IMG/VR virus record: IMGVR_UViG_3300042314_001732
Coordinates: 1-48,260 of that record
Strand: one strand, 5' to 3'
Length of the DNA: 48,260 bases
DNA from: a virus
The notes under the pieces were generated by a model. That model had not been told where the DNA came from and ran no database searches. It saw only the letters and a program-made list of their open reading frames with translations. The translations under genes and the position numbers were made by a program. This document shows positions 33,794-36,399 of this stretch, piece after piece (the stretch's first letter is position 1; every line of letters starts with the position of its first letter).

Positions 33794-34504
33794 TTACGCC
33801 GTCTTCGCCGCAGCCCACAGCGCGATCCCCAGGGCCTCGCCGAGATCGACGGGCAGGTCGGCGCCGTCGCTGTCAGCGGGCAGGCCGTGGGCAGCGAGCA
33901 GGTCCGCGGGCCAGCCGCCGGCGAGCTGGGCACCCATCGCCCGCGGGCAGGGCTTCACGTCGCCGTGCGCCGCTTTCTTGCGCCGCTGGGATGCGAGTGG
34001 GGCGGCGACGGCGCGCCATTCGGATGGGGCAGGGCGGCCGACGTGGGCGGCGACGTCGATGATGGGGCCGGCGATCAGGCCAGCGAGCCACGCCACCCCG
34101 AGGCCAGCGGCGGCGAAGCGCCCGGAATACTGGCGCTCGACTGCGGCATGGATCGGCATGGTAGGCAGGGCGACACCCGCCGCTTCGGTGGCCTCGCGGG
34201 CCAGCGCGTCGCCGATGGCGTGGAGGCTGAGGGCAGCGCGCATCGGCGAGGGCCACCACGTCGGGGCGTAGACTGTGCCGCTCCTGCGGGTGCGCTCGGC
34301 CCACGTCACAGCGGCGATCAGGGCGGGCGGGCCGGACATGCCGCAGCGCAGGATCACGGCGGCCCCAACGGCTCCGGGGTCGATCCCGATGACGATCCGG
34401 GGCGTCGACCCGAAGGCCAGCGGGAGGGGCGCTTGGGGCTCGGGGGGCGGCTTGCGGGGCTTTGGGGCGCGCTTGGGGCGCGGGGCTTTGGCGGGCGTGG
34501 TCAT
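33794..34504 (-). CDS. RuvC-like Holliday junction resolvase
   Basis: 236 aa. Crossover junction nuclease of the RNase H fold: GIDPG (D42) preceded by IVI, AAVERQ (E123), and the terminal SDGADLPVDLGEALGIALWA with acidic D220/E223, the usual order of RuvC acids. The first 30 residues are Lys/Pro-rich. It likely resolves branched DNA before packaging. It overlaps the methyltransferase gene by ATGA. Confidence 0.8.
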   Translation of the reverse strand: MTTPAKAPRPKRAPKPRKPPPEPQAPLPLAFGSTPRIVIGIDPGAVGAAVILRCGMSGPPALIAAVTWAERTRRSGTVYAPTWWPSPMRAALSLHAIGDALAREATEAAGVALPTMPIHAAVERQYSGRFAAAGLGVAWLAGLIAGPIIDVAAHVGRPAPSEWRAVAAPLASQRRKKAAHGDVKPCPRAMGAQLAGGWPADLLAAHGLPADSDGADLPVDLGEALGIALWAAAKTA

Positions 34505-36399
34505 CCAAACAACCCCTGCTGAACGCTCGGCACCCAAGCGGGCGCCCGGTTCAAGGTCAGCCATTCGGCTTGCTGTTTGCTGAAAGTGCGCTTCTGCCCC
34601 ACCCTTTCGCCGTCGATGCGGACGGCGTGCCAGCCCTCGGCGACAAGCTCCGGGATGGGCTCGGCCTCGCTGATGCACACCGTCGCCCCAGCCGCAGCCC
34701 ACCGCCGGGCCAGCGCGACCACGTCGGCGCGGGGCAGGTCCGAGGCGTAGCCGGTGGTTTTTCTGCCCGGAATGATGAGATGTGTGTTAGTATCGAGACG
34801 CACCCTCAACCGGAGTAAACAATGCCGTTCCAAGTCCCGTGCCAGATCTGCGGCACCACCCTCTCCCGCCCGTGGAACCCGACGTGCGGAAAGCGCGCAA
34901 CTTGCCCAGGCGTCTGCCTCAGCGAACTGCGCCGCCGCACCGGGCTGCGCTTGGCAGCGGAGGGCAAACTGCCTGAGATCACCGCCGAGATCCAAGCCAA
35001 GGCGGCCATCGGGCGCACCGGGAAGGGCAAGGGCTGGCTCCAGAACGGGTATCGGCAGGTGATGCACAATGGACGGCGCATCATGGAGCACCGCCTTGTC
35101 ATGGAGCTTCACCTTGGCCGCGAACTGACTCCAGACGAGGTCGTCCACCACATCAATCACGACCCGCTCGACAACCGTATCGAGAACCTCCACTTGTACC
35201 CCAGCCGCGCGGAGCACTTCAAAGACGGCCACCCTGAGATGACCGACCGGCTCCCGAAGGTGATTGAGGCCAACTGCGCTGAGTGCGGCGTCACCTTCCT
35301 CACGCCCGCAAGCGTCAAGCGGCAGCCGCTCTGCCGCACACATCGGCGGTATCATCGGCGCTACGTCTGAATACGGGGGATCGATGAACACCACCGTGCC
35401 GGGCGGCAAAGCGGGGCCGGGGTCCACCGCCCGCGCGTCCACCTCCACCGCCGCGGGCAGGTCGCCCACCACGCCGTCGAGGCCCTCGGCCGTGCGCTCC
35501 GGCGCCGAGCAGAAGGCCGACCCGCCGAACGTGGCCCCGCCGTCGCCCGTGTTGATCCACCGCTGCTCGGCCTCCGACCATGCCGTGTGGATCAGCCGGT
35601 TGGAGGCGACGATCTGGCACCACCGCGCCACCTCGCGCGGGTCCACGTCGCGGGCATCGGGCGTGATGGCGGCGGGGAGGGTGGGCAGCACCGACAGGGC
35701 GGGGCCGAGCACGTCGGGGTGGCCCGCTTGCCGCAGCACACTGACGGTGACGCCGTCTTGTTTGAAGGGCCGCTCCCATCCACCGAAGCCGGCTTCGGGG
35801 CCTTTGCCGTTCACTCCGACCCCGTGAAGGTGCGCCCACCGCGCCACCTCGCGCGGGTCCACGTCGCGGGCGTCGGGGCACACCGTGGCGGGCACGTCGA
35901 GCCCAGCCTTGGCGGTCGCGGTCGCGGTCGCGGTCGCGGTCGCGGTCGTGTCCTGCCTCCGGTCGCCGGGCAACACCGGCCCGCCCGATGGCCAGTCGCC
36001 TTGGCGGTAGTGCCAGCCCCAGATCGCCAGCCACCGCGCCACCTCACCCGCCTCCGCGCCCCCGTCCGGCAACCGCGGCGGCCCCTCCGCGCGCAGCCGC
36101 TCCCACAGCGCCCGCGGGTCTTCAGCGGCCCACGACCGGATGATGGCGGCGGCCTCGCGGGCCAGCCCGGCGTCGCGGTAGGCTTCGAGCAGGAGCCGCA
36201 CGCCGGGGTCGGGCTCGCACCACAGATAGGCGGCGGCGCGCTGGCCGGGGATGAGGCCGAGGACGCGCAGGATGACGTTGGCGTAGCCCGTTTTCGCGCC
36301 AAGCCGGGACACCGGGGGCTTGGCTCCGTCGCGGTGGAGGCGAAGGGACAGGGCGGCGGTGCCGGCGCAGAGTTCGACCATGAGGGGGATGGGGTTCAC
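34501..36399 (-). CDS. D12-class (Dam-like) adenine methyltransferase, interrupted
   Basis: Frame of 632 codons from a GTG (36399; ATG at 36381 also possible), with GGAGGGGG upstream. Motif I is VELCAGTAALSLRL (8-21); DPPY motif IV is at residues 340-343 (35382-35371). The expected next part, TTGYASDLPRADVVALARRW, begins only at residue 548 (34758). The roughly 203 residues between are the antisense of the HNH gene at 34822-35370, yet the frame stays open. C-terminus is QQGLFG, a possible clamp-binding end. Two modules PDARDVDPREVARW come from a 36-bp duplication, and (Thr-Ala)n from a hexamer repeat. Whether the enzyme is functional, or needs removal of the insert, is unknown. Confidence 0.8.
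   Translation of the reverse strand: MNPIPLMVELCAGTAALSLRLHRDGAKPPVSRLGAKTGYANVILRVLGLIPGQRAAAYLWCEPDPGVRLLLEAYRDAGLAREAAAIIRSWAAEDPRALWERLRAEGPPRLPDGGAEAGEVARWLAIWGWHYRQGDWPSGGPVLPGDRRQDTTATATATATATAKAGLDVPATVCPDARDVDPREVARWAHLHGVGVNGKGPEAGFGGWERPFKQDGVTVSVLRQAGHPDVLGPALSVLPTLPAAITPDARDVDPREVARWCQIVASNRLIHTAWSEAEQRWINTGDGGATFGGSAFCSAPERTAEGLDGVVGDLPAAVEVDARAVDPGPALPPGTVVFIDPPYSDVAPMIPPMCAAERLPLDACGREEGDAALSAVGLNHLREPVGHLRVAVFEVLRAAGVQVEVLDTVVERVVIDVVDDLVWSQFAAKVKLHDKAVLHDAPSIVHHLPIPVLEPALALPGAPDGRLGLDLGGDLRQFALRCQAQPGAAAQFAEADAWASCALSARRVPRAGEGGAADLARDLERHCLLRLRVRLDTNTHLIIPGRKTTGYASDLPRADVVALARRWAAAGATVCISEAEPIPELVAEGWHAVRIDGERVGQKRTFSKQQAEWLTLNRAPAWVPSVQQGLFG
34822..35370 (+). CDS. HNH homing-type endonuclease inserted in methyltransferase
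   Basis: 182 aa on the opposite strand to the host gene. It has two Cys-pair segments (CQICGTTL near the start, CAECGVTF near the end) around an HNH_3-like core: NGYRQVMHNGRRIMEHRLVM, then LTPDEVVHHINHDPLDNRI and ENLHLYP. The His-His and Asn-His pairs give the nuclease active site. CGGAG precedes the ATG, and a T-rich, less GC-rich stretch (34755-34800) precedes it. The TGA (35368-35370) abuts the DPPY codons of the methyltransferase, which marks the right insertion edge. Confidence 0.9.
   Translation: MPFQVPCQICGTTLSRPWNPTCGKRATCPGVCLSELRRRTGLRLAAEGKLPEITAEIQAKAAIGRTGKGKGWLQNGYRQVMHNGRRIMEHRLVMELHLGRELTPDEVVHHINHDPLDNRIENLHLYPSRAEHFKDGHPEMTDRLPKVIEANCAECGVTFLTPASVKRQPLCRTHRRYHRRYV
35620..35655. 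repeat. 36-bp direct repeat within methyltransferase, copy 1
   Basis: Same 36 bases at 35836-35871; both encode the PDARDVDPREVARW module core. Suggests module duplication in the target-recognition region. Confidence 0.85.
35836..35871. repeat. 36-bp direct repeat within methyltransferase, copy 2
   Basis: Exact copy of 35620-35655, followed after one mismatch by further similarity. Confidence 0.85.
35912..35947. repeat. Hexamer tandem repeat (GCGGTC)6 in methyltransferase
   Basis: Six exact GCGGTC units, encoding an alternating Thr-Ala run. The unit is a multiple of three, so slippage would alter length without breaking the frame. Confidence 0.9.

Follow-up and report, generated by a model that had tools for sequence, protein, structure and literature searches.

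Homing genes usually escape the cost of conserved catalytic sites by occupying introns, inteins or intergenic positions. HNH endonuclease genes have also been described as intron-less insertions in critical regions of phage genes, namely mobE in the nrdA gene of Aeh1 and mobA in T4 gene 60; such insertions split the host gene, and for Aeh1 the polypeptides encoded by the separated portions of nrdA have been shown to assemble (PMC2988022). A survey of phage nucleases reports numerous genes that are interrupted by such endonuclease genes (PMC10448857), and antisense endonuclease genes are known from nuclear group I introns of Didymium, to judge from a title cited in PMC8395846. Our search of the open-access literature turned up no intron-less antisense insertion across which the host frame stays open.

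Here we analyze a locus of this kind in a 48,260-base IMG/VR virus record (IMGVR_UViG_3300042314_001732; the whole stretch is referred to as the window), which encodes phage proteins including a terminase, a tape measure protein, a helicase/primase, a RecE-like exonuclease, a thymidylate synthase and a ribonucleotide reductase. It resembles mobE/nrdA of Aeh1 and mobA/gene 60 of T4 in that an HNH gene lies, outside any intron or intein, in a critical region of an enzyme gene that has uninterrupted relatives. Unlike Aeh1 nrdA, the HNH gene here is antisense, the host frame contains no stop and we found no restart signal. The mobE gene of Aeh1 reportedly lies on the same strand as its host gene nrdA. 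The locus shares with the free-standing HNH (mob) endonucleases of the T-even phages the combination of an HNH core with putative DNA-binding segments, a patchy distribution and an apparent spread among related phages, whereas the mob genes of T4 are mostly intergenic and the HNH gene here is within a gene, its homing being putative. As in Didymium, the nuclease gene is opposite in strand to the gene that it interrupts, but there is no intron here.

Results

Anatomy of the interrupted gene

The features of the locus are collected in Table 1. The initial annotation had placed an HNH gene antisense directly after the DPPY codons of an adenine methyltransferase, and the family match of the nuclease, the D12/Dam fold of the host and the coordinates all agree with this. 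The sequence also bears out its more detailed observations: the TGA of the HNH gene (35368-35370) lies directly next to the Tyr codon of DPPY (35371-35373), and the methyltransferase resumes with TTGYASDLPR at 34758. The insert is 204 codons long and thus divisible by 3; its minus frame would encode a peptide that includes the stretch SDVAPMIPPMCAAER.

Table 1. Coordinates of the methyltransferase locus and its insert in the window.
Feature	Position	Strand	Evidence
Minus ORF, 632 codons, open throughout	34501-36399	-	
Methyltransferase N-terminal part as far as DPPY, with the motif I region and a variable target-recognition region	35371-36399	-	Homologues L003-L030; uninterrupted homologue with a D12/Dam fold
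DPPY catalytic motif IV codons	35371-35382	-	Sequence and alignment
Methyltransferase C-terminal part, TTGYASDLPR... to stop	34501-34758	-	tblastn against uninterrupted homologues; family invariants kept
Complete insert, 612 nt where empty alleles have 6 nt, net +606	34759-35370		Alignment with empty alleles, L005 and L009 among them
Gene for a 182-aa endonuclease of the HNH_3 family in which both the N- and the C-terminal segment are Cys-rich (zinc-ribbon-like)	34822-35370	+	Pfam PF13392, PHROG, dN/dS
HNH_3 core, HHINHDPLDNRIENL	35089-35208	+	Pfam match, residues 90-129
63-nt HNH leader; Shine-Dalgarno GGAG at 34812-34815; minus frame is 21 open codons	34759-34821	+	Sequence
22-nt tract adjoining the insert, candidate co-conversion tract	35371-35392	-	Comparison with L005 and L032

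The host gene is Dam-like by fold

A model of the uninterrupted homologue L018 has a mean pLDDT of 69, with much of the core above 90, and when it was compared with the PDB using Foldseek the best matches were E. coli Dam, McbE1, DpnM and T4 Dam (E-values from 7e-5). Because the predicted fold matches these Dam-type structures, we take the host gene to be a Dam-like adenine methyltransferase by fold, without membership of the curated Pfam family: the gathering threshold of PF02086 (MethyltransfD12) is not reached (best E-value 0.087), and 6 of 21 members match at E-values up to 1. The protein shares with Dam, DpnM and T4 Dam the fold, as seen in the uninterrupted homologue, and a DPPY motif near the C-terminus, and differs from them in falling below MethyltransfD12 significance and in having a modular, highly variable middle. 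No relative of the 632-aa protein was found in annotated phage records.

Both halves of the interrupted gene are well preserved. Thirteen uninterrupted proteins share 91 invariant positions; one of these is changed in the window and none in the second insert-bearing allele described below (L032). For both interrupted alleles pN/pS lies within or below the range of the uninterrupted alleles, and neither half shows relaxed selection.

The middle region of the methyltransferase (35600-35900 of the window, minus strand; loci L003-L030) is a set of shuffled modules linked by recurring 'DARxVDPREVARW' joints, of which the window has two copies and L003, L004 and L032 have more; pieces such as 'GDRRQDTTATATA' or 'NRLIN...NTGDGG' appear in varying order. 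This may be a target-recognition region that evolves through module exchange. At 35905-35955 on the minus strand, a short in-frame hexanucleotide repeat, (GACCGC)n, encodes a Thr-Ala run in the methyltransferase, with similar runs in L010 and L027. The gene directly downstream (33794-34516, minus strand) carries a RuvC-like 'IGIDPGAVGAAVI' motif and has no Pfam or PHROG match.

The insert encodes an HNH_3 endonuclease

The HNH protein matches Pfam PF13392 (HNH_3) with an E-value of 2.1e-11, and its HHxxN...DNRxxNL core scores 43.7 bits, above the curated cut-off of 24.8. Nearly all of its 17 PHROG matches are annotated as HNH endonucleases; relatives in annotated phage records align mainly over the core, and no sequence relative was found among solved structures. 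The gene has its own translation start, with GGAG 6 nt before the ATG, and no sigma-70-type promoter match was found in its 63-nt leader. A search with the leader motif AGATGTGTGTTAGTATC returned, beyond the second copy, just two unrelated matches, which is about chance level for a collection of this size, and we therefore reject the motif as a common regulatory element.

Distant relatives of the HNH gene in viral contigs sit away from DPPY sites, with the exception of L033 (2121-3785). There the HNH gene, at 39% identity, comes after a separate, small methyltransferase-like gene that has the same orientation. On either side of this pair is a copy of a gene encoding 'HHVIGLGWGLSGMGL'; the two copies are diverged, and the first is truncated. 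In the phage records H10-H18 (Bipolar, Pollywog and further mycobacteriophages) a match to the HNH protein, at 34-38% identity, overlaps DNA methylase or methyltransferase annotations, which hints at a possible same-strand association of HNH and methylase.

Empty alleles define the insertion site

The initial annotation had looked to alignment for uninterrupted alleles, and we found 76 that span the site (72 viral and 4 genome loci). These are distinct contigs: 28 viral contigs from a search with the minus ORF, 44 more from an alignment query and four genome contigs. Only the window and L032 bear the insert. In nearly all of the empty alleles the site reads DPPYxxTTGYA, and since two residues separate DPPY from TTGYA the insert amounts to 612 nt that replace 6. 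A natural 200-aa domain at this position in relatives lacking the HNH gene would have offered a different account of the open frame; none of the 76 has one. The uninterrupted L122 and L123 have a 6-aa insertion in the loop after DPPY. Several uninterrupted alleles have variants of motif IV, namely DPSY (L003, L005), DGPY (L004, L151, L162) and DPNY (L168, L170); these could be inactive, or target-site variants that the HNH enzyme spares.

Around the insert, the window is approximately 97-98% identical to L005, its nearest allele, over 128 nt upstream and about 115 nt downstream, with the exception of a 22-nt tract directly upstream of the junction. In this tract there are about 10 differences from L005, the nearest empty allele, and 21 of 24 positions match L032. 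The uninterrupted L003 and L004 differ by a diverged block of about 60 nt (-10 to +52 relative to where the DPPY codons end) between near-identical flanks, which suggests local conversion at the insertion site. Because these two alleles show similar mosaicism without an insert, the 22-nt tract is consistent with co-conversion but not decisive for it. The site around the DPPY codons could be a hot spot for cutting and repair. A search with the junction pattern gave one extra match, L109, with neither an HNH gene nor a methyltransferase nearby.

A second copy points to horizontal movement

A search with the HNH protein identified L032 (contig 3300007735_000975), in which an antisense HNH gene occupies the identical site in an insert of equal length, and the minus ORF is again open across it (622 aa). 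The two HNH proteins are 85% identical over their full length, and yet the methyltransferase allele of L032 is far from that of the window: dS between them is 0.42 in the insert, 0.73 in the first 120 codons of the methyltransferase and 1.5 in its C-terminal part. The ribonucleotide reductase gene common to both phages is also more diverged than the insert (0.67 vs 0.30 for synonymous sites of one class). As the insert is less diverged than both its flanks and the ribonucleotide reductase gene, horizontal movement of the insert between phages is the best explanation, in keeping with the homing-like spread implied in the initial annotation. The L005-like flanks suggest that the insertion in the window is recent. 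The gene thus has the following features of a free-standing homing endonuclease: a location outside introns and inteins, its own translation start, the existence of empty alleles, and a patchy, apparently horizontally moved insert.

Codon usage can account for the open antisense frame

Codons of the minus frame coincide with those of the HNH frame (antisense phase 0), and for this reason only TTA, CTA and TCA codons in the HNH gene would close it. These codons are rare in the phage of the window; with its codon usage, the probability that the minus frame stays open over the HNH part is 0.45, and shuffling gives 0.29 for the 63-nt leader. The remaining two minus phases of the HNH gene contain 4 and 9 stops. 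For a random antisense insertion, the joint chance of an open frame, the right phase and a length divisible by 3 is 0.45 x 0.29 x 1/9, or approximately 1.5%, a figure that was computed post hoc and counts the two known copies as one event. The open frame of about 203 codons that the initial annotation noted is real (204 codons, within the 632-aa ORF), but it is not as unusual as was thought: it is about what base composition gives, and codon usage explains it.

Comparison of the window with L032 gives a dN/dS of 0.21 for the HNH frame and an omega of 0.97 for the antisense frame. Selection acts on the HNH frame; the antisense frame, on these substitution rates, looks neutral, which together with the codon usage does not support the idea that selection keeps it open. 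In a four-class overlap test (dNN/dNS) the antisense omega is 0.65 (CI 0.37-1.19), compared with 0.58 for the non-overlapped C-terminal part of the methyltransferase. When codons were resampled with the HNH amino acids kept, the changed codons fixed and the codon usage of the phage, there were 43 antisense changes against 43.5 expected, with no significant shortage of antisense stops; the antisense changes were slightly more conservative than expected (BLOSUM z of 2.0; controls -2.3 to 0.8). There are few double-synonymous sites in the insert comparison. A naive simulation had indicated antisense constraint (43 changes vs 56 expected); we rejected this result, as its null model ignored clustering and codon usage.

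Discussion

The anatomy of the locus, the empty alleles, the second insert at the same site, the lower divergence of the insert and the selection on the HNH frame are all observed, and in light of them we consider it likely that this is a free-standing HNH homing-type endonuclease gene that sits antisense, without an intron or intein, in the codons after DPPY of a phage Dam-like methyltransferase. Cutting of the empty allele, homing and loss of methyltransferase activity are steps that we infer. The endonuclease would nick or cut insert-less methyltransferase alleles at or near the conserved site, and during co-infection repair from an insert-bearing phage would copy the HNH gene in, leaving the methyltransferase gene interrupted by the copied-in insert. 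If expressed, the product would be 632 aa long and would carry, right after DPPY, an antisense-encoded loop of 204 aa that is probably unfolded; this protein is most likely impaired or inactive. In an AlphaFold model of it, parts of the methyltransferase core are confident and the pLDDT of the insert is mostly 24-41, which is weak evidence as only two sequences cover the insert. The methyltransferase is probably crippled or recently broken, and we estimate a disrupted or impaired enzyme to be a likelier outcome than functional read-through. Counting against the homing explanation, only two contigs bear the insert and both are known from sequence alone. The mosaicism seen in L003 and L004 and the joint chance of about 1.5% for a frame-keeping, open insertion also count against it. 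A further point is that neither half of the methyltransferase has decayed, and the gene could still work; with an apparently recent insertion in the window and an undatable one in L032, this does not distinguish a working enzyme from one that broke recently.

The intact family invariants and the lack of relaxed selection in either half are also what would be expected if the methyltransferase were made as one working 632-aa read-through protein, with the insert tolerated as a long loop and frame-keeping insertions persisting. The frame is open in both insert-bearing phages over a length divisible by 3, the loop after DPPY tolerates the 6 additional residues of L122 and L123, the 632-aa model still has good confidence in the core strands and in the C-terminal part, and the conservative antisense changes (z of about 2) and few double-synonymous sites are weak hints of antisense constraint. 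We nevertheless regard this reading as unlikely: the antisense omega is close to 1, and in the overlap test its interval includes neutrality as well as the value for the non-overlapped C-terminal part; the counts of antisense changes and stops are as expected from HNH evolution alone; and 204 residues of very low pLDDT would be situated beside the active site. The fuller proposition, that the 612 bp are read both ways, giving an HNH endonuclease in the forward direction and, in the reverse direction, a 204-aa loop that a functional 632-aa methyltransferase tolerates, is in our judgement quite unlikely.

It is highly improbable that the insertion yields two assembling polypeptides in the manner of the split nrdA of phage Aeh1, for which homing endonuclease insertions in critical gene regions provide a precedent (PMC2988022) and with which the conservation of both methyltransferase halves would be compatible. 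On the minus strand of both copies the frame continues past DPPY without a stop, and before TTGYA (near 34758-34821 in the window) no start codon is preceded by a plausible Shine-Dalgarno sequence, such that a second cistron would lack a start signal of its own. Least probable of all, to the point of being barely tenable, is a self-splicing intron or intein with its nuclease on the opposite strand: antisense-strand homing endonuclease genes do have the precedent of the Didymium introns, but the insert has no match to Rfam intron families at the gathering or a relaxed threshold and HNH coding sequence takes up 549 of its 612 nt, leaving 63 nt, too little for a minus-strand group I or II intron (the former raised in the initial annotation), while on the minus strand it ends in ...PGRK before TTGYA, with Lys in place of the Asn that an intein would have before a Cys, Ser or Thr +1 residue.

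We therefore return to the free-standing, antisense homing-type gene as the preferred explanation. What the locus presents is a bare, backward homing-type gene in the active-site codon run of an enzyme, in two phages. If the 612 bp were in fact read both ways, a homing gene would be able to occupy active-site codons without an intron or intein by keeping the antisense strand open. The locus is thus a compact test of whether such a gene breaks a dispensable host gene or is tolerated through read-through of its antisense strand.
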